A stretch of DNA of 64,000 nucleotides. Source: Halohasta litchfieldiae (GTDB taxonomy: Archaea; Halobacteriota; Halobacteria; Halobacteriales; Haloferacaceae). Under the pieces are notes generated by a model. That model was not told the origin of the DNA and did not search any database. It saw nothing but the letters and a program-made list of their open reading frames with translations. Below, in pieces: positions 2,357-11,360 of the stretch. Where the stretch lies: the NCBI RefSeq assembly GCF_002788215.1, contig NZ_CP024845.1, forward strand, positions 868,001 through 932,000, given 5' to 3'. A program made the position numbers and the translations under genes. Numbering within the stretch: position 1 is the first letter of the stretch; each line of letters opens with the position of its first letter.

Positions 2357-2615
2357 ACGAGGGGTTTTGATAGCCGAAACAAGGCTCTTTCCCTGTCGAC
2401 GGCCCACGGCCATCGCTCGACAGGTGGATCAGGCCGATCAACCACTGAGAGCCGAACTGTCGTACGTAGTTTCAGCCATATGGAAACATATGTACGTAAA
2501 GTGGTGAAAATAGTTATGTGGAGCAGTCGACATCGCAGAAAGCTAGTTATTAGTGGCTTACGAGTGGCCCAAACGCCTTTTCGGCTGGGCGTGGGCAACG
2601 TTATTTGACTGACAC

Positions 2616-3635
2616 ATGTGTTACAACTTCTCAGAAAAACTGCGGCGGGCAGTACCGACACAGTGGGCAACCGCTCCCAAGGCAATTGTCGCTGATTCAC
2701 AGCAGAACGGTCCAACTGACCAGCCGACTGCGGGCGACGGGTCGCGCGGTTCCCCAACGGGTTCGGGTCGACTGCTCACGGATGGTGGCGAGTCGGAGTC
2801 CGACGACGAGGACAGCGAGAGCGACGGAGCCGACGAGGAGATGGCCCCGCCCGAACAGGAAGGTGAAGCAGGTGAAGAACCCGAGGACGAAGAAAGACAA
2901 GAGGCCGAGGAAGGGGAACAAGAAGGACAAGAGGCTGAAGAAGCAGAAGAGACTGAAGAAGGTGACGAGGAGATGGCCCCGCCCGAACGTGAGGGTGAAG
3001 CAGGTGAAGAACCCGAAGCAGAAGGCGAGGAGGCAACGGAACAAGAGCAACCGGAAGTCGAAACAGAAGGTGAGGAAGCCGAAAGTGAGGTAGAAGAAAC
3101 CGTCGACGTCCCCCAGAGCGATGTCGAAAGCGTAGGTGCTGAAGAAGACGAGAGCACGACGGTGCTGTTCCTCGACCTCTATGGGCTGGATCTCGACCTG
3201 CTTGGCCTCGAAATCCAGCTTCATCAACTCGTGTTGGATGTGTTTGCGACCGAAGGCGACGGAAACCTGCTGGGGAATCTCCTATCGGGAGTTGCTGGCC
3301 TCGGTGACGGAGATCTGCTTCCCAGTGGATTGTCGGATATGATGCCGGAAGACGGCCTTTCAGGGATGCTCCCCGGTGGAGACAAAATTAAAAACACGCT
3401 CGGCCTCGGTGGGGGCGGCGAGAGCGAAGAAGGAGAAGGGCAAGACGGAAAAGAAGGCCAAGAAGGCGAGGAGTCCGGTGGGTTCCTCTCGTCGACAGCC
3501 AGTAGCATTCGGGAGTCGGTTCCCAGCCTGCCGGTCAAACAGCTCCTGATCGAGGTCATCGCCGGGGTGATCAAACAGCTGCTCGAATCCCCCGAAAAGG
3601 AATCCGGCGAGGAAGCCTCCGGTGAGGGGTCATGA
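2616..3635 (+). CDS. Acidic low-complexity protein with an LLGLE/GNLLGNLL domain, gas-vesicle-adjacent
   Basis: 339 aa, function unknown. After a polar N-terminus, residues about 65-175 are almost pure Glu/Gly/Ala/Pro low complexity with an internal duplication. Next comes a compact hydrophobic domain (about 185-235) with the pattern LDLYGLDLDLLGLEIQL and GNLLGNLLSGVAGL. I remember a similar LLGL/GNLLGNLLC signature from uncharacterised bacterial proteins, but cannot name the family. The C-terminus has an amphipathic stretch (VKQLLIEVIAGVIKQLLE) and an acidic tail. It is the first gene of a four-gene operon and overlaps the next gene by ATGA. The start at 2616 is the only ATG before the low-complexity region. 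No Shine-Dalgarno sequence is seen, so the start is uncertain. There is no signal peptide. Confidence 0.7.
   Translation: MCYNFSEKLRRAVPTQWATAPKAIVADSQQNGPTDQPTAGDGSRGSPTGSGRLLTDGGESESDDEDSESDGADEEMAPPEQEGEAGEEPEDEERQEAEEGEQEGQEAEEAEETEEGDEEMAPPEREGEAGEEPEAEGEEATEQEQPEVETEGEEAESEVEETVDVPQSDVESVGAEEDESTTVLFLDLYGLDLDLLGLEIQLHQLVLDVFATEGDGNLLGNLLSGVAGLGDGDLLPSGLSDMMPEDGLSGMLPGGDKIKNTLGLGGGGESEEGEGQDGKEGQEGEESGGFLSSTASSIRESVPSLPVKQLLIEVIAGVIKQLLESPEKESGEEASGEGS
2832..3015 (+). repeat. Imperfect 132-bp duplication inside the acidic gene
   Basis: A block beginning gacgaggagatggccccgcc occurs at 2832 and again at 2964. Roughly 50 bases are nearly identical each time. The offset of 132 bp is 44 codons, so the frame is kept. 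It encodes DEEMAPPE followed by E/G-rich residues twice. The duplication accounts for much of the low-complexity region and for long spurious open frames on the other strand. Confidence 0.8.
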
Positions 3636-3976
3636 GCGACACGAACGGGCGGATCGACTACAGTCGACTGGTCGGCGATATCGATTTCGGGACTGCCTTC
3701 GAGGGGACGCGATTCGAACAGTACACCGACACCGAAAACGGACTCGGCAGTATCCTCGGCGGCTGGCTCGGGGCGATCCTCGGTCGGTTTGTCGGCATGG
3801 CACTCGGAGAAGTCGCCCAAGAACTGCTCGTCGACGAGCTATTCGGGGGGCCGGAGGACGACCAAGCGAGCGGCCAGAGCGATGGTGGCGACAAATCAAC
3901 GGAATCAACCAACAGCGAGGAGACCACGGACGAAGCGAGTTCGGACGAAGAGACTGCGGAGGCTGAGACCGAATGA
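3632..3976 (+). CDS. Small glycine-zipper protein, gas-vesicle-adjacent
   Basis: 114 aa, not a family I can name. The core is a hydrophobic segment with six glycines spaced exactly four apart (G39, G43, G47, G51, G55, G59; GGWLGAILGRFVGMALGE). This is a classical glycine zipper, expected to pack as a tight helix pair in a membrane or protein assembly. An amphipathic helix (VAQELLVDELF) follows, then a Ser/Thr/Glu-rich acidic tail from about residue 75. The ATG overlaps the stop of the previous gene (ATGA), so translation is probably coupled. The next gene, 34 bp downstream, has the same kind of glycine spacing. A role in gas-vesicle assembly or surface binding is inferred from position only. 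Confidence 0.75.
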   Translation: MSDTNGRIDYSRLVGDIDFGTAFEGTRFEQYTDTENGLGSILGGWLGAILGRFVGMALGEVAQELLVDELFGGPEDDQASGQSDGGDKSTESTNSEETTDEASSDEETAEAETE

Positions 3977-4010
3977 GCGCCCTCGAATCCACAGTCAGGA
4001 GTGACACACC

Positions 4011-4655
4011 ATGAGTGGCAGCAAGACACTCGATCTGATCCAAGAGAACCTTCCGGACAGTCTTCGTGACGAACTGAAAGAAAGCGAGTTGGCCACGCAG
4101 GTCGGCGGCAGCTACGGCGAGCAGGCCGGTCGACGGGTCGGCCAACAGGTCGGTGCGGAGGTCGAAGAACGGTTTCGGGAGCGGCTCAACGCCGGTACAA
4201 CTGTCGGTCGTGCACTGAAAGACGCACTCACATTCCTCCCGGCAGCGATACTCCACGCGCTGCGAGGCGGAACCTCACCGGGTGGTGTCGTCTCCGATCT
4301 CAAAACGGAGCTCAAAACGGAGCTCAGATCGATGGTTACGGAGACGAAAGACGAGGGGAGCGAAACGGCCGCTGAGGGGGCACAAAAAGCCGGAGAGACT
4401 GCTGGCGACACGGTCTCGGAGGGTGCAGAGTCGGTTCCGGGACTCCCCGCCAGCGCCGACCAACTTCGGCAGGAGACGATCCGAGATCTGCTGGACGTGA
4501 TGTCCTACCGTGAGCTCCAATCGACGGCCAAGCAAGTCGGCGTGAAAGCCAACCAGAGCCACGAGGAGATCGTCGACGACATCGTCGACCACTTCGCCGA
4601 GCGGAAGGAGGGCGACGAGGGGACCGAATCCACCGAAACAGAATCCGAGTCCTAA
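4011..4655 (+). CDS. Glycine-zipper protein with C-terminal SAP/Rho-N-like helices
   Basis: 214 aa, unknown function. Residues 1-30 are an amphipathic helix (LPDSLRDELKESELATQ). Glycines 32, 36, 40, 44 and 48 form a second glycine zipper (GGSYGEQAGRRVGQQVGAEV), here hydrophilic between the glycines and so probably not a membrane span. A helical middle and a Glu/Ala/Gly-rich linker (about 100-150) follow. Residues about 160-200 (IRDLLDVMSYRELQSTAKQV, then a second helix ending DDIVDHFAE) resemble SAP or Rho N-terminal helix pairs that bind nucleic acid or protein. It lies in an operon between the other glycine-zipper gene and the 4658 gene, 2 bp away. The domain assignment is by eye. Confidence 0.75.
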   Translation: MSGSKTLDLIQENLPDSLRDELKESELATQVGGSYGEQAGRRVGQQVGAEVEERFRERLNAGTTVGRALKDALTFLPAAILHALRGGTSPGGVVSDLKTELKTELRSMVTETKDEGSETAAEGAQKAGETAGDTVSEGAESVPGLPASADQLRQETIRDLLDVMSYRELQSTAKQVGVKANQSHEEIVDDIVDHFAERKEGDEGTESTETESES

Positions 4656-4657
4656 CG

Positions 4658-5419
4658 ATGGCCGACGACACCCAACAGCAGGTCGACGGCCTGCTCGCTG
4701 ATCTCGCAGCGGCGTTCGTCGAGGACAGCCAGCCCGACCCGGAGACGGTCAACGAGCTTGTCGACCGAGCCGACGAGATCGTGTCGACAACCGATCTCAC
4801 AACGCTCCTTGCCGCAGCCGGTATCGGCAACGAGGATGCGCGTCCCGAGTCGTTGCCAGCGGCGGTCGCCGACGGAGAGCCGGAAAACGTCGCCGCGCTC
4901 CGGTCGCTCCTGACGGCCTCGAAGCTGTCGACTGCCGACGAGGACCGCGAGGAACTCGTCGACGAGCTGCAGTCGCTCGTGGAGACGACACAGAGTGAGC
5001 CACCGGCTGCGGCTGAAACGACCAACGACACTGGAGACGTAGCTGAGACGACTACTGCTACCAACGAGGAGACAGCGGCGACCGAGACAGAAGCTGAGAG
5101 TGACAAAGAGTCGTCTCCGATCCGAGAGCTCCTCCAGTCTCAACTCGAAGAGACCAACAGTATATTTGATCAGATTCCGGACCTAGAGGCGCTCACTGGC
5201 GGTTTCGACGAGGACGACGAGAACACGGAGACTGCCGATGAGGACGAGAGACGAGATGACGAGCAGTCGACCAGAAACAGCGATGGCACACGCTGGCGGC
5301 CCGGCGGCGGCAAACAGCGAACGACCCATTCGACAGTTCCCAGTTCCCGTCGACGAGACATCGGTCGACGACCGGGGCGGTTTTCCTCGGTGCGTGGGTC
5401 GACAGTCTCGAAACGGTAA
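4658..5419 (+). CDS. Acidic helical protein with basic Arg/Ser tail, similar to the GvpI-slot protein
   Basis: 253 aa, last gene of the acidic operon and convergent with gvpO. The first 100 residues are helical (TTDLTTLLAAAG, ESLPAAVADGEPENVAALRS). They resemble by eye a segment of the 8111-9115 product (TTDTDELLDTVD, DSLPEALESGNVGDAIELKN). An acidic Thr/Glu linker and IRELLQSQLEE follow. The end switches abruptly to a basic tail (HSTVPSSRRRDIGRR), again like the tail of the 8111 product (STVPRN, PSRRRIYGRRF). This suggests two paralogues of one two-part design, an acidic helical body plus an arginine-rich C-terminus. Function is unknown; a link to gas vesicles is inferred from location and this similarity. 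Confidence 0.75.
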   Translation: MADDTQQQVDGLLADLAAAFVEDSQPDPETVNELVDRADEIVSTTDLTTLLAAAGIGNEDARPESLPAAVADGEPENVAALRSLLTASKLSTADEDREELVDELQSLVETTQSEPPAAAETTNDTGDVAETTTATNEETAATETEAESDKESSPIRELLQSQLEETNSIFDQIPDLEALTGGFDEDDENTETADEDERRDDEQSTRNSDGTRWRPGGGKQRTTHSTVPSSRRRDIGRRPGRFSSVRGSTVSKR

Positions 5420-5428
5420 GCGACAGAA

Positions 5429-6091
5429 TCAGTGCTGGCTGGGGCCGGTGTCGCTGCGTCGGTATTTTTCGAGTCGACGGTAGCCGATGACCTCACCGGA
5501 CTCGTCGAGTTCGATCTCGTACTGGCCGAGGATGTCTTGGGTGTCGGGAACCGACCGGCGTTCGATGATCTCGACCACCGCGCGCCAGTTGTCGTCGTTC
5601 CGTGAGACCTCGATAATGCCGTCCAGCCCGCGGCCGATCACGTCAGTCGACAGCTCGATGACTTGATTCCGAACCTCGATAATGCTCGCCGTGTCACCCT
5701 CACCGTCAAGTGAGGGCGTCGACTCGTCTGCTTGGGGGTCGACCCCGATATCGCCCGTCTGTTCGGCGACGGCCTCGTCGTCGGCTTCGATTGTGGCAGG
5801 CTCTTCAGGCGTCTCTTCGTGCTCTTGGCTCTCGTCTGCGTCTTGTGCTTGGCTTTCGTCGGCGGCTTCCTGCTCGTCGCCGTCGTTTTCAGCAGCCGCC
5901 TCGCTTTTATCAGTCGACGTCGACCCGGAGTCCGAAGCAGAATCGGGATTGGAATCAGAATCGGCCTCGCTCGCTTCTTCGCTTTTGTCGCTCTCGTCGG
6001 AGGCTTCCTGCTCGGCCCCGCCATCTGTGAGTAGTACTTTGGTTCTGTGCGTGTTGGATTCGTCCCTATCGTCCGTGAAATCGTGTACCAT
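5429..6091 (-). CDS. gvpO: Gas vesicle protein GvpO
   Basis: 220 aa. GvpO is one of the accessory proteins needed for gas-vesicle formation in haloarchaea. The conserved part is C-terminal, about residues 135-220 (EVRNQVIELSTDVIGRGLDG, DNWRAVVEIIERRSVP, YEIELDESGEVIGYRRLEKY). The long N-terminus is Ser/Glu/Asp-rich and disordered. I set the start at the ATG at 6091 (MVHDFTDD); seven residues further upstream the frame can only begin with TTG. It lies directly downstream of gvpA, probably co-transcribed. In known haloarchaeal clusters gvpC and gvpN stand between gvpA and gvpO, and both are absent here. Confidence 0.9.
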   Translation of the reverse strand: MVHDFTDDRDESNTHRTKVLLTDGGAEQEASDESDKSEEASEADSDSNPDSASDSGSTSTDKSEAAAENDGDEQEAADESQAQDADESQEHEETPEEPATIEADDEAVAEQTGDIGVDPQADESTPSLDGEGDTASIIEVRNQVIELSTDVIGRGLDGIIEVSRNDDNWRAVVEIIERRSVPDTQDILGQYEIELDESGEVIGYRRLEKYRRSDTGPSQH

Positions 6092-6164
6092 GGTTCGTGT
6101 ATGTAATATCAAAACCGATGTGCTGGTGACGGGGACCGCTTGCGTAAGGCGTCGCTCCGGTGGT

Positions 6165-6449
6165 CTACGTTGCTTCGGGGTACTGTGCCTGGGTGGCTGG
6201 CGTTCGCCGGATTTCGAGGTCCTGGAGGTCCTCCAGTGTTCCCTCCTCGGTCACCTCTTCGAGTTTCGATATCTCGGCGGCGTAGTGGAGGAACGTGTCG
6301 ACCGAGGCCACCACAACTCGGGCTTCGACCGTGAGAATTTCGATCCCCACAACTGAAATCCGTGCCCAGATATCGATGACAACACCTTTGTCGAGGATGC
6401 GGTCAAGTACGTCCGCCAAACTGTCTGCTCCGGGTCGGTCTGATGCCAT
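6165..6449 (-). CDS. gvpA: Gas vesicle structural protein GvpA
   Basis: 94 aa, the hydrophobic shell protein that polymerises into gas-vesicle ribs. The core is classical: [20 protein letters not shown], then [20 protein letters not shown] and [12 protein letters not shown]. The C-terminus is somewhat longer than in the best-known haloarchaeal GvpA. The ATG at 6449 (MASDRPGAD) fits the usual N-terminus, and the 14 upstream residues of open frame are rejected. A TATA-like cctaaata lies on the minus strand at 6479-6472, about 25 bp before the ATG, so the transcript may be leaderless. It is divergent from gvpF and followed by gvpO. Confidence 0.97.
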
Positions 6450-6710: not shown

Positions 6711-7343
6711 ATGAGTTCGAACCGCTACACCTACGGCGTCATCGAGCAGGGATCACTCGATGTCGACGTCACAGGAGTCAACGGCTCCGAGCCGATCCGA
6801 ACCGTCGACTACCGCTCGCTGTCGGCGGTTGTCAGCGATATCGAGGAGATGGACCCCGAACGAACCGACGAGAACGCCACCGCCCACGATGAGGTGCTGC
6901 GGGCGGTCCTCAAGTCGGATGGTGGCCGCACAGTCGTCCCCATGCGGTTCGGCATGGTATTTAAAACTGAGAACGCGCTCAAAAACATCCTCAGAAACGG
7001 GCGGGTGGCGTTCCGACGCTCGCTCAATGATCTCGACGGGATGGTTGAACTCGGCGTGAAACTCGTCACAAAAGAGGGGTCGACCGTCGACCGACCGGCA
7101 GTCGTCGAGGATGTCGCCACGCGACTCCGCGCGGCCGCAGATACCGAAGCGGGTAACGATCTGTACAGCGACCGGTTGGTGTTCAACCGTTCGTATCTTG
7201 TCGAACGGGACGACCAGACCGCGTTCGATGATATCGTAAGCGAGATCGAGACTGAGTACGGCGACGATCTCCACGTCCAGTACAACGGGCCGTGGGCCCC
7301 CTACAACTTCGTCGACATCGAGATCGGCACGGAGGGTCGCTGA
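6711..7343 (+). CDS. gvpF: Gas vesicle protein GvpF
   Basis: 210 aa, of the GvpF/GvpL family; GvpF interacts with GvpA during vesicle assembly. It starts RYTYGVIEQGSLD, with the conserved block VVPMRFGMVFKTENALKNIL near residue 80. It ends with the family signature YNGPWAPYNFVDIEI. The ATG at 6711 is used because the open frame upstream (from 6645) has no conserved residues. It is the first gene of the eight-gene plus-strand operon. Its stop overlaps the gvpG start (TGATG). Confidence 0.95.
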   Translation: MSSNRYTYGVIEQGSLDVDVTGVNGSEPIRTVDYRSLSAVVSDIEEMDPERTDENATAHDEVLRAVLKSDGGRTVVPMRFGMVFKTENALKNILRNGRVAFRRSLNDLDGMVELGVKLVTKEGSTVDRPAVVEDVATRLRAAADTEAGNDLYSDRLVFNRSYLVERDDQTAFDDIVSEIETEYGDDLHVQYNGPWAPYNFVDIEIGTEGR

Positions 7344-7594
7344 TGTTCGTTATAGACGACCTACTTATCAACCCCTTTGTCTCGATTATGGAGGCAGTTC
7401 ATTCGATGGCGATCAGCGAGCTGTACGACACCACCGAGATCAAAAACGAAATCAAGGAAAACAGACTGCTGTACGAACTCGGCGAGCGGTCGGAAGCCGA
7501 GTACGAACGGCTGAACGACGACCTCGAAGCACAGCTCGAAATCGCGCGCGAGGCACACGAACAGACACGCGGCAAAGTCGAGGTCATGAGATGA
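7343..7594 (+). CDS. gvpG: Gas vesicle protein GvpG
   Basis: 83 aa, a small accessory protein of gas-vesicle formation. It has a short hydrophobic N-terminus (MFVIDDLLINPFVSIMEAVH) followed by a long charged helix (EIKNEIKENRLLYELGERSE) likely to form a coiled coil, typical of GvpG in length and layout. It overlaps gvpF by one base and gvpH by ATGA, so the three are probably translationally coupled. Confidence 0.93.
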   Translation: MFVIDDLLINPFVSIMEAVHSMAISELYDTTEIKNEIKENRLLYELGERSEAEYERLNDDLEAQLEIAREAHEQTRGKVEVMR

Positions 7595-8118
7595 CAGACA
7601 CCCCACCACCCGGCGACCGAGATACCGACCAGTCCGATCAGCCAGACCAGCCCCGATCAGGAGACCCAGACTCCAGACGAGGCGGCGTCTCGGGACTGCT
7701 CAGACAGCTCCTCGAAACGATCCAACGACTCGACGAGGGCGGACGCTCAGTCGAGCAAGGTCAGGGCCGTCGACGCTCCGGTAGCACCGCGTTTGAGTAT
7801 GAGTACAGTGTCAATATGGGTCTCGGAGAGGCTGAGACAGCCGACAACACGGCCCCAGCCACTGAGCCGGACCACCCCGTCAGTGTCCAACAAACGCTCG
7901 ATGGAGCGAGTGTGACAGTCGACCTTCCGGCGGTCGACCCCGAGACGCTCCGTGCAGGAGTGACTGGTCGACGGCTCGTGGTAGCGGCCGACGACGAGCG
8001 ACTGGCGCGTGTCACGCTTCCCGAGGATCACTACACGGTCCGGTCTGCCACCTACAACAACGGCGTCTTGGAGATCCTGCTGGCAGACAGCGACTCGGAG
8101 GTGATCGTCGATGACTGA
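7591..8118 (+). CDS. gvpH: Gas vesicle protein GvpH, Hsp20-like
   Basis: 175 aa. The C-terminal half resembles an alpha-crystallin/Hsp20 domain (QQTLDGASVTVDLPAVDPE, GRRLVVAADDE, ATYNNGVLEILL), as expected for GvpH. The N-terminus is disordered and Asp/Pro/Arg-rich, with GGVSGLLRQLLETIQRLDEG as a conserved-looking helix. It lies between gvpG and the GvpI-slot gene and overlaps both. Assignment rests on the fold pattern plus position in the F-G-H-I-J order. Confidence 0.88.
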   Translation: MTDTPPPGDRDTDQSDQPDQPRSGDPDSRRGGVSGLLRQLLETIQRLDEGGRSVEQGQGRRRSGSTAFEYEYSVNMGLGEAETADNTAPATEPDHPVSVQQTLDGASVTVDLPAVDPETLRAGVTGRRLVVAADDERLARVTLPEDHYTVRSATYNNGVLEILLADSDSEVIVDD

Positions 8119-9115
8119 GTCGGACGACGACCTGCTCGATGTGGAAGCGGTCGACGATCTTGACCTCGACGACCTCGACAGCGTCGACGAACTCGATACT
8201 GAGGAGCTGCCGGACGCCAGTGAGCTCGATCTCACGCAGCTTGGTCCGCTTGTCGAGGGGGCACAATCGCTCCTTGAATCGATGACAGAAGGCGAGGATG
8301 ATCCATCAGCAGGGAAACTACAGGCTCTCCTTCACCTAGTGAATCTCATCCAAGGCGTTCTCACGACGACCGATACCGACGAACTGCTCGATACCGTCGA
8401 CCTCGATGAACTCGATTCGGTTGTCGACCTCGACTCGCTGCCGGAGGCGCTCGAATCCGGGAATGTTGGCGATGCAATCGAACTCAAAAATCTGCGTAAA
8501 CTCATCGAGTTTGGCCAGCTGTGGGATGCGGTCGACCTCACCGAACTCATGGGGTCGAAAGACGAAATCACCGACACAGTTGGCGTACTGACTGGCGACG
8601 ACGAGGAGGGCGAGGGCGGTCTGTTCAGTAATCTGGAGCTGGGAGATATCACTGGCGGCGATGAAGACGGCGAACTGGGTGCTCTCACGGACCCAGAGAT
8701 GATCCAGGCGGCGACACAGGCCCAACTCGACAGTGCAATCGATGGCTTTCGGGATCTACTGATCGAAACGCACGCCCGACTTGACGAACTTCGGGAAGCC
8801 AATCAGGCCCGGTTCGACGGCGTCGACCAGCCCAGTTCGCGGAACCCCACGGCTGTCTCGACAATCACGACACACCGTGGCCCGCCGAAAGACGCCTCCC
8901 GGACCTCGACAGTGCCACGAAACGTTCGGCACTCAACAGGGCCGAGTCGACGCCGGATCTACGGTCGACGGTTTACACGCATGGTTGAACAAAGAACAGT
9001 CGACGACGCCGAGACTGACGAGGAACCGGTCAACGAAGAGACCGCTCGTGAGGAGCAGACGACTGGCGACCCAGTCGACGAAGAAGCGGCCGAAAAGGGA
9101 GGTGAGGACCGATGA
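8111..9115 (+). CDS. Oversized protein in the gvpI position: acidic helical body plus basic tail
   Basis: 334 aa, between gvpH and gvpJ where gvpI normally lies. Residues 1-235 are very acidic and helical (LDLDDLDSVDELDTEELPDA, LLDTVDLDELDSVVDLD, ALESGNVGDAIELKNLRKLI, SAIDGFRDLLIETHARLDEL). About 240-290 turn basic (STVPRNVRHSTGPSRRR, IYGRRF), followed by a short acidic tail. GvpI in model haloarchaea is much shorter and basic, so only the C-terminal part could correspond to it. The body has a look-alike in the 4658-5419 product. It may be a fusion of a haloarchaeal acidic family with a GvpI-like tail. It overlaps gvpH by 8 bp and gvpJ by ATGA. Confidence 0.72.
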   Translation: MTESDDDLLDVEAVDDLDLDDLDSVDELDTEELPDASELDLTQLGPLVEGAQSLLESMTEGEDDPSAGKLQALLHLVNLIQGVLTTTDTDELLDTVDLDELDSVVDLDSLPEALESGNVGDAIELKNLRKLIEFGQLWDAVDLTELMGSKDEITDTVGVLTGDDEEGEGGLFSNLELGDITGGDEDGELGALTDPEMIQAATQAQLDSAIDGFRDLLIETHARLDELREANQARFDGVDQPSSRNPTAVSTITTHRGPPKDASRTSTVPRNVRHSTGPSRRRIYGRRFTRMVEQRTVDDAETDEEPVNEETAREEQTTGDPVDEEAAEKGGEDR

Positions 9116-9588
9116 GTAGTGGTGGCCCAATGCGACAGAAAGACAGCCTTGCGGATGTCGTCGAGATGCTGCTGGACAAGGGGATCGTCGTCAACGCCGA
9201 TATCATCGTCACCATCGGCGAAACCGAACTCCTCGGCATCCATCTCCGGGCCGCAATCGCCTCCTTCGAGACGGCCGCCGAGTACGGCCTGGAGTTCCCT
9301 GACGGTACTGACACTGAGCGAATCGAGGAGGTCACGGGTCGACGGAACCATCTCGAAACGATTCAGGCGACCGGTGGTGAGCCGGATATCGTCGACGAGA
9401 ACGACGAGACCGCAACGTGGACCGTCCGGCCGCCGGTGGTCGTCCGCGAAGACGACGACGGCAAATCATCACTCACTCCGGACGACGAATCGGACGAGGC
9501 GGCATCCGAAGCTACTGACGCGGGTGAGTCGGGGTCGAAATCCGAGACGGAGACAGCGTCGACGGAGGAGGCTGATGGAGGCGATTAA
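9112..9588 (+). CDS. gvpJ: Gas vesicle protein GvpJ
   Basis: 158 aa, a GvpA-related minor shell protein. Residues 8-62 carry the GvpA/J/M fold (SLADVVEMLLDKGIVVNADI, ETELLGIHLRAAIASFETAA). The rest is an acidic Ser/Glu/Asp tail. The last 14 bases overlap the gvpK start in another frame. It sits in the usual order after the gvpI slot. Confidence 0.94.
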   Translation: MSSGGPMRQKDSLADVVEMLLDKGIVVNADIIVTIGETELLGIHLRAAIASFETAAEYGLEFPDGTDTERIEEVTGRRNHLETIQATGGEPDIVDENDETATWTVRPPVVVREDDDGKSSLTPDDESDEAASEATDAGESGSKSETETASTEEADGGD

Positions 9589-9961
9589 TCTCGACGGCAA
9601 CGAGGCCAGCGACGGGCTGCTGTCGTTGGTGATCGCGATTGTCGAACTCCTGATCGAAGCGCTCGAACAGGAGGCCATCCGCCGGATGGAGTCCGGCTCA
9701 CTGACTGACGAGGAGATCGAGCGCCTCGGGACGCAGTTGGCCGCGCTGCACGAGGAAATCGACCAACTCAAAGCCGACAGTGGTATCGAAGACGACGTCT
9801 CACAGCTTCGGACCAGCCTCTCGGATCTCGTCGAGGACGCTCTCGAACGCGTCGACGAAGACGAGCCACACCCCGGATTCGCGTTTCTCGACGATGTGAG
9901 CGCGCCGTCGCCGGAGCAGCCAGCCGCTGGGTCGACCGACCAGCCGGAGGAGCCGGAATGA
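9575..9961 (+). CDS. gvpK: Gas vesicle protein GvpK
   Basis: 128 aa, an accessory protein of vesicle formation. The family core is clear: INLDGNEASDGLLSLVIAIV, ELLIEALEQEAIRRMESGSL, TDEEIERLGTQLAALHEEID. A C-terminal Pro/Glu-rich stretch follows. The start at 9575 (MEAINLDG) lies inside gvpJ. The open frame continues far upstream but that part is out-of-frame gvpJ sequence. The stop overlaps the gvpL ATG. Confidence 0.94.
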   Translation: MEAINLDGNEASDGLLSLVIAIVELLIEALEQEAIRRMESGSLTDEEIERLGTQLAALHEEIDQLKADSGIEDDVSQLRTSLSDLVEDALERVDEDEPHPGFAFLDDVSAPSPEQPAAGSTDQPEEPE

Positions 9962-10788
9962 CCGACATCGAGCAGGGGCGGTATCTGTACTGTCTGGTGT
10001 ATACGCCCGGTGTCGACCCAGCCAACCCCGAGTGGTCGACCGAGGGAATCGAGGACGAGCCGGTGTCGGTCATCACTGCCGGAGACGTTGGCGCAGTCGT
10101 TCATCCCTGTGACTCACTGTACGACACTGACGACCCCCAGACGATTCAGGGGTGGCTATTGAGTCATCAGGGGGTCGTCGACGAGGCAGGCGAGGTCTTC
10201 GGGACGCCGATCCCGTTCCAGTTCGACACGATCCTGACCGGTGGTGACGAGTCGGTCCGCGAGTGGCTACAGTCCGAATCCGAGCGACTCGAACCCGAAC
10301 TGTCGGCGCTGTCGGGCCACTGGGAGTACCGCGTCGAGATCACCCATCACGAAGACGCCCGTGCGGCACTCAGCGAGGCCGACGAGGAGTTGTCGACGCT
10401 CCAGACGAAGATCGACGACGCCGAGTCGGGGACCGCCTACCTGCTCGAACAGCAGTACGAAAAGGAGCTTCAAAAGCAACTCCGCCAGCACCGCCACCAG
10501 CAGGCCCAGTCGGTCGCCGACCGGATCGCCCCCCACGTTTCGGCCCTCGAATCGCTTGGCAAACGACGGTCGACGGGAGTCGGAATCGAAACCGGGCAGG
10601 ATGACGAAACCGAGCCGATTGCCCGGTTTGCGGTGCTGGCGACCGACGAGGGAGCCGAGGCGCTCGGCGAGGAACTCGACGAGATCGCCGCCGAGCCGGG
10701 TGTCGAGGTCCGGTTCACCGGGCCGTGGCCACCCTACACGTTCGCCCCGGAGATCGACAGCGGAGGTGGACATGGAGCCAACAGCTGA
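9958..10788 (+). CDS. gvpL: Gas vesicle protein GvpL (GvpF/L family)
   Basis: 276 aa. It begins GRYLYCLVYTPG, typical of GvpL, and has the conserved TPIPFQFDTIL block near residue 85. A long charged helix (LEQQYEKELQKQLRQHRHQQ) is probably a coiled coil. It ends FTGPWPPYTFAPEI, the same signature as GvpF. GvpL is thought to contact several other Gvp proteins during assembly. It overlaps gvpK by ATGA and gvpM by 17 bp. Confidence 0.94.
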   Translation: MTDIEQGRYLYCLVYTPGVDPANPEWSTEGIEDEPVSVITAGDVGAVVHPCDSLYDTDDPQTIQGWLLSHQGVVDEAGEVFGTPIPFQFDTILTGGDESVREWLQSESERLEPELSALSGHWEYRVEITHHEDARAALSEADEELSTLQTKIDDAESGTAYLLEQQYEKELQKQLRQHRHQQAQSVADRIAPHVSALESLGKRRSTGVGIETGQDDETEPIARFAVLATDEGAEALGEELDEIAAEPGVEVRFTGPWPPYTFAPEIDSGGGHGANS

Positions 10789-11215
10789 GTCCGAAGACGT
10801 GATCGTCGACCTGCTGGATGTGTTGCTGCAGAAGGGCGTCGTGCTTGAGGCCGATGTCGTCATCGGGATTGCCGACATTCCGCTAGTGGGGATCAAACTC
10901 CGGGCGGCGATTGCCGGGCTGACGACGATGCGGGAGTACGGCATGTTCGAGGAGTGGGATCTCCAACAGCGTCGACAGCGGCGTTCGCATGCGTTGCAGC
11001 CCGGTGGGTCGCTGACTGGTCGACCGAATCCACAGCGGCCGCGGGAGGAGGCGCAGACGCGCGGTGGACGGCCTGAGGGAAGCAGTCGACCACGTCACGG
11101 AGATCGATCAGCAGGGAGTCGTCGACCGGCTGGTAGTCCGGCTGAGGAAGAGTCAGTCACTGGTGAGGATAAGGGAGTTCTCGACAGGAGCGGTGACACA
11201 GACCGAGAGAAGTAG
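10772..11215 (+). CDS. gvpM: Gas vesicle protein GvpM with a long basic tail
   Basis: 147 aa. Residues 1-66 are a standard GvpM: EDVIVDLLDVLLQKGVVLEA, DVVIGIADIPLVGIKLRAAI, GLTTMREYGMFEEWD. GvpM in model clusters is about 84 aa. Here the frame runs on for about 80 residues rich in Arg, Gly, Ser and Pro (RRQRRSHALQPGG, GGRPEGSSRPRHGDRSAGSR). The tail has the same basic character as the 4658 and 8111 tails. It may be genuine or may reflect loss of an original stop. It is the last gene of the gvpF-M operon, about 75 bp before the tRNA-Pro. Confidence 0.9.
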   Translation: MEPTAESEDVIVDLLDVLLQKGVVLEADVVIGIADIPLVGIKLRAAIAGLTTMREYGMFEEWDLQQRRQRRSHALQPGGSLTGRPNPQRPREEAQTRGGRPEGSSRPRHGDRSAGSRRPAGSPAEEESVTGEDKGVLDRSGDTDREK

Positions 11216-11290
11216 TTCGATTGAGAGTGATGGCACTCGTTGGTCATCAAGAGAAGTCGACGCTGAAGCTAACCAATATAAAAATGGAAT

Positions 11291-11360
11291 GGGACTGCCG
11301 AGAGTCGAACTCAGGTCCTACGGACCCCATCCGCAGAGGATACCACTACCCCACAGTCCC
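11291..11360 (-). tRNA. tRNA-Pro (GGG anticodon)
   Basis: On the minus strand, gggactg and cagtccc form the acceptor stem. The anticodon arm tgcgg-atggggt-ccgta gives anticodon GGG. The T-arm is ctgag-ttcgact-ctcgg. About 70 nt. The variable region is short. CCA is not clearly encoded. It borders the 3' end of the gas-vesicle island. Confidence 0.93.

Follow-up and report, generated by a model that had tools for sequence, protein, structure and literature searches.

A four-gene operon of Halohasta as a probable accessory module of the gvpC-less gas-vesicle system of haloarchaea

In haloarchaea whose gas-vesicle (gvp) gene clusters lack gvpC, and with it gvpD and gvpE, an operon of four genes, designated here P1 to P4, probably serves the gas-vesicle system as an accessory module. 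This reading follows from the conservation of the four genes as a unit, their near-strict co-occurrence with gvp genes, their linkage to gvp clusters in several lineages, the paralogy of P4 with GvpI, and, in many genomes where the operon is unlinked, a promoter element common with gvpA. A gas-vesicle accessory module had already been proposed in a preliminary description of this DNA, and the proposal is now supported by co-occurrence, linkage and P4-GvpI homology. The window analysed, i.e., the whole stretch of 64,000 nucleotides, belongs to a haloarchaeal genome made of a single contig of 3.33 Mb (Table 1).

Table 1. Features of the operon P1-P4 and of the adjacent gvp cluster, with positions in the window.
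Feature	Position	Strand	Length	Remarks
P1 upstream region	2540..2615	+		holds GTGGCCCAAACGCnTTTTCnGCTGGGCGTGG
P1	2616..3635	+	339 aa	
P2	3632..3976	+	114 aa	
P3	4011..4655	+	214 aa	
P4	4658..5419	+	253 aa	
gvpO	5429..6112	-		PF05800, 1.9e-25
gvpA	6165..6449	-		shell protein
gvpF	6711..7343	+		
gvpG	7343..7594	+		
gvpH	7591..8118	+		
Long GvpI ("gvpI slot")	8111..9115	+	334 aa	GvpI tail preceded by an acidic N-terminal extension
gvpJ	9112..9588	+		
gvpK	9575..9961	+		
gvpL	9958..10788	+		
gvpM	10772..11215	+		

The four plus-strand open reading frames have the coordinates and spacings first described, namely a 4-bp overlap between P1 and P2, a 34-bp gap between P2 and P3 and a 2-bp gap between P3 and P4, and they do converge on gvpO, the 3' end of which lies 9 bp from the end of P4. 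The composition initially noted holds as well, all four products being acidic (pI ~4.05-4.5), with P1 rich in glutamate, P2 a weak glycine zipper, and P4 ending in a basic tail (pI 12 over the last 50 residues). As for the statement that none of the four matches a canonical Gvp protein, it stands for family collections, neither Pfam nor NCBIfam giving a family above its cut-off for P1 to P4, but fails for P4, which profile comparison reveals as homologous to GvpI; PHROGs yielded nothing useful for the module. The adjacent gvp cluster has no gvpN, gvpC, gvpD or gvpE, and a GvpN search over the whole genome returned none at E<=1e-30. The product of gvpO is extended at its acidic N-terminus, where an LLTDGG motif resembles one in P1, and a tRNA-Pro gene (ggg; 11290-11360, minus strand) sits directly past gvpM. 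The granules reported in Halohasta were considered as possible gvp products, an idea that was dropped, the genome encoding a PHA synthase.

P4 is composed of an acidic helical N-terminal part and a basic tail of the STVP type. In hhalign comparisons, the N-terminal parts of P4 and of the long GvpI aligned with a probability of 98.3% over 209 columns, and the tail of P4 reached 97.1% against long GvpI and 85% against short GvpI, controls with reversed and shuffled profiles staying below 2%, and below 1% for the N-terminal parts. These profiles mark P4 as a paralogue, over its full length, of the long GvpI of haloarchaea, and the design which the preliminary description saw shared between the operon and the protein of the gvpI slot corresponds to real homology. 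Nearly all haloarchaeal GvpI tails read combine STxP repeats with a YGxRF-type end; P4 tails possess the repeats and lack the C-terminal YGxRF segment, which argues for a paralogue rather than an orthologue, and the slot between gvpH and gvpJ is occupied by a true GvpI, not by P4. An N-terminal extension of GvpI was already noted in Natrialba magadii (PMC3403918). In Halobacterium salinarum, GvpI binds GvpH, GvpF and GvpL, and its loss leads to overlong vesicles (PMC4390858, PMC7688916); by analogy with its homologue, P4 should act where GvpI does. Regarding variants of the fourth gene, Haladaptatus salinisoli has, at a distance from gvp, a second copy of P1 whose neighbour (L083, 8202-9059) resembles GvpI and P4 and contains three STxP-like repeats. 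In genus g15, a membrane-type protein unrelated to GvpI takes the place of P4 (L052, 10863-12053; L053, 8408-9628).

The other three proteins are described best by their architecture. P1 comprises an E-rich acidic N-terminal half, an invariant core (TTVLFLDLYGLDLDLLGLEIQLHQLVLDVFATEGDGNLLGNLLSGVAGL) and a C-terminal helix; the core is predicted to form a beta-hairpin plus helix (AlphaFold pLDDT near 78), the hairpin having one hydrophobic face as judged by sequence. The core as a diverged GvpA, on account of its appearance and its predicted beta-beta-alpha order, was a candidate that had to be rejected, hhalign giving below 1% against GvpA, GvpJ and GvpM and the fold search with the core finding no match. 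In Halococcus-like and some other lineages (L089, L153, L178, L070, L207), P1 is fused into proteins of 500-850 aa, with carboxypeptidase-regulatory and Big_1 domains ahead of P1 in one case (L089, 9446-11308) and repeated SPISALRSAASRVWGV segments behind P1 in several. P2 consists of a glycine-zipper helix (GLGSILGGWLGAILGRFVGMALG) followed by an acidic tail; it scores 12.8 bits against the Pfam Gly-zipper family, below the gathering score of 25, and its spaced glycines are invariant in the alignment. P3 contains an N-terminal G-x3-G-x3-GR helix, a low-complexity linker and a SAP-like C-terminal domain (residues ~149-202); in the predicted structure the N-terminal helix is long, and the C-terminal domain, also helical, is modelled well (pLDDT 80-93). 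The top Foldseek matches of this C-terminus are mostly SAP-domain proteins, e.g., DEK and 3'hExo, at a probability of ~0.9 with E above 1 (rmsd of 1.6 A to 3'hExo), and sequence searches with P3 gave no family above cut-off. Of the candidate roles named in the preliminary description (coating, clustering, nucleic-acid scaffolding), nucleic-acid binding alone has a pointer, namely this SAP-like end. Sequence searches against solved structures using P1 and P3 returned only chance matches such as coiled or designed helices.

With P3 alone as a query, matches were obtained in 22 of 170 genomes of the window's family, from 7 of 28 genera. Around nearly all 22 matches, P1, P2 and P3, and mostly P4 too, occur in the same order (P2 being undelimited in three genomes of genus g18); as this order is kept while the genes flanking P1-P4 vary from genus to genus, the four genes are the unit. 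At least four different arrangements place the module in a gvp cluster or next to one. In other Halohasta, the operon adjoins gvpO exactly as in the window, and P1-P4 lie downstream of gvpO in Natronosalvus as well as in a Natrialbaceae MAG. In Halocatena salina, gvpH and gvpI are separated by two genes annotated merely as hypothetical, each junction being a 4-bp overlap; the first of the two is P1, and in Halocatena marina P2 is recognised too. Elsewhere, P1 and P3 are close to gvpM. Of the 65 gvpC-less clusters read, a hand-picked and not a random sample, 22 have P1-P4 genes within the same 20 kb. In most genera outside Halohasta, operon and gvp are separated by 100 kb or more or are on different contigs. 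Such separation is seen in the other genera of the window's family; in other families the operon is again in or by the cluster. The linkage seen in the window thus exists beyond this genome, both in other Halohasta and in other families.

Among 391 genomes of Halobacteria, GvpG is found in 160, P1 in 130 and P3 in 128. Homologues of the module are not mainly in genomes devoid of gas-vesicle genes: GvpG accompanies P1 in 129 of the 130 genomes and P3 in 122 of the 128, i.e., one and six exceptions, respectively, and in the window's family it is present in all 22 P3-bearing genomes. Counted by genus, all 40 P1-bearing genera belong to the 53 with gvp out of 86 (hypergeometric p 1.6e-13, a statistic which, like those on promoters below, is incompletely adjusted for common ancestry). 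The lone P1-bearing genome without gvpG is one matching Natribaculum breve (G256), which carries a full P1-P4 operon (L067, L169) and gave no GvpG or GvpN match; either the gvp genes were lost or the module was put to a second use. Besides this species, the P3 exceptions are weak or match mainly the SAP-like end. The view that P1-P4 is an unrelated operon and a chance neighbour of gvp could invoke its location away from gvp in most genera, together with the P1 core motif that a bacterium, Salipaludibacillus, has in small proteins which it secretes (L110, 9665-10252; L126), where no gvp was seen nearby, but it is made extremely improbable by the near-perfect co-occurrence, the embedding of the module in gvp operons, the P4-GvpI homology and the promoter element common with gvpA. 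No match to P1 was found in a plasmid collection. A dependence of the module on GvpN was ruled out, gvpN being present in 81 of the 122 module-bearing gvp+ genomes and missing from 41, as it is from the window genus. Since gvpC-type species do without the module, and both P1 and P3 are missing from 30 of the 160 gvp+ genomes, it is non-essential for gas vesicles as such.

P1 or P3 was found in none of 13 gvpC+ genomes vs. 48 of the 65 gvpC-less ones, and gvpD and gvpE are missing from all gvpC-less clusters read. The mutual exclusion of the module and gvpC, along with the predicted hydrophobic hairpin core of P1, would fit a functional replacement of GvpC, where the module forms an alternative external coat stiffening and shaping the shell. 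However, all gvpC+ clusters fall into one clade of a GvpF/G/L tree (one change), and their lack of the module, which may go back to a single event, is as such weak evidence; besides, 17 of the 65 gvpC-less genomes are without the module and a GvpC query gave no P1-P4 gene as best match, which makes a functional replacement rather improbable. Module presence changes 12 times over the same tree, and the tie of the module to gvp itself, as read from these sequences, is repeated, unlike the exclusion of gvpC.

The palindrome GCYTGC-N4-GCARGC is found upstream of gvpA and of many unlinked P1 genes, at equal distance to the start codon. A matrix built solely from promoters that precede gvpA in gvpC-less clusters (GCtTGCAnnnGCAGncccAA) was run against unlinked P1 promoters, a site being counted when above the 95th control percentile and 30-46 nt upstream of the start. 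Sites were obtained in 26 of 62 unlinked P1 promoters vs. 3 of 595 control genes, a difference whose significance is inflated by ancestry, many of these promoters being from Natrialbaceae. The P1 promoters of genus g18 display a perfect or near-perfect GGCTTGC-N4-GCAAGCC, whose core occurs only one to five times per genome and which sits beside P1 in four of five genomes; for gvpA of the three g18 genomes checked, the palindrome matches at 11 of 12 positions and at the same distance as at P1. About half of the gvpC-less clusters have it ~38 nt ahead of gvpA, and it is absent from gvpA promoters of gvpC+ clusters. The window's own promoters are without GCYTGC-N4-GCARGC, those of P1 and gvpA having only TGGCC in common, and the GTGGCCCAAACGCnTTTTCnGCTGGGCGTGG stretch upstream of P1 is conserved in four Halohasta genomes. 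The element is not enriched at linked P1 genes, and the longest word common to the P1 and gvpA promoters of one genome is no better than in shuffled sequence. The palindrome at gvpA suggests an undescribed regulator where gvpD and gvpE are missing. Could the module itself be regulatory, with P3 binding DNA via its SAP-like domain and the set controlling gvp expression instead of GvpD/GvpE? The absence of gvpD/E from every gvpC-less cluster read, the SAP-like end of P3 and the common palindrome, which shows that some regulator exists, are in line with it; yet SAP domains are atypical as folds of sequence-specific repressors or activators, no regulatory domain is present in P1, P2 or P4, and P4 is the paralogue of an assembly factor, so that a regulatory role of the module appears improbable.

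As an accessory module, P1-P4 might operate as follows: (i) P4, like GvpI, would use its STxP basic tail to dock the module, either on the GvpH/F/L assembly or directly on the shell; (ii) P1 would lay the all-hydrophobic face of its amphipathic beta-hairpin against the GvpA ribs or rib ends; (iii) the glycine-zipper helices of P2 and P3 would oligomerise; and (iv) the SAP-like end of P3 would bind nucleic acid. In this way the module would set how long or how strong vesicles are and where in the cell they are placed, in part replacing GvpC. These details are put forward tentatively, the balance leaning somewhat against their all holding together. Most gvpC/DE-less species examined were reported without visible vesicles, the genes still being kept (PMC4390858), and this, with gvpN absent from the window genus and 41 of the 122 genomes mentioned above, could mean that the gvpC-less cluster and P1-P4 build a gas-vesicle-derived body other than a flotation vesicle. 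That GvpA is highly conserved and the essential genes are all present, and that a vesicle-negative report may simply reflect a lack of expression in culture, renders such a body unlikely. Little probability is likewise given to the wider proposal of gvpC-less clusters, P1-P4 and the palindromic operator as a distinct gas-vesicle-derived organelle system, perhaps nucleoid-anchored via P3, and not a silent Halobacterium-type copy.

So far, work on gas vesicles has mainly dealt with gvpC/DE-type clusters, e.g., that of Halobacterium, and a search of the literature outside subscription journals found no paper on the four genes. About 80% of the sampled gvp+ haloarchaeal genomes carry a P1-P4-type gene set, and a module broader than expected, largely tied to the gvpC-less subtype, is supported. 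The four genes and one operator are candidates for explaining why gvpC/DE-less species keep gvp yet are reported vesicle-free, and P1-P4 would offer new parts for engineered gas vesicles.

Respective to known systems, the closest likeness is with GvpI: P4 has in common with GvpI of Halobacterium salinarum a basic tail with repeated STxP, and its acidic helical N-terminal part recurs in the long GvpI that Nmag_0338 of Natrialba magadii encodes, but P4 differs in lacking the final YGxRF and in residing in its own operon, alongside a true gvpI in the same genome. Haloarchaeal GvpC is an acidic, non-essential shell accessory, which the module would resemble if it does replace it; there is nonetheless no detectable similarity, and the two never occur in the same genome among those checked. 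As in GvpA, GvpJ and GvpM, a beta-hairpin followed by a helix is predicted in the P1 core, though with no profile similarity and no fold match. The C-terminus of P3 may have a fold like that of SAP-domain nucleic-acid binders (DEK, 3'hExo), with weak E-values and no sequence family above cut-off. Finally, the GvpD/GvpE upstream activating sequence is, like the palindrome, near the gvpA start and common to other promoters; unlike it, the palindrome sits in clusters without gvpD/E, gvpC+ promoters being without the palindrome.
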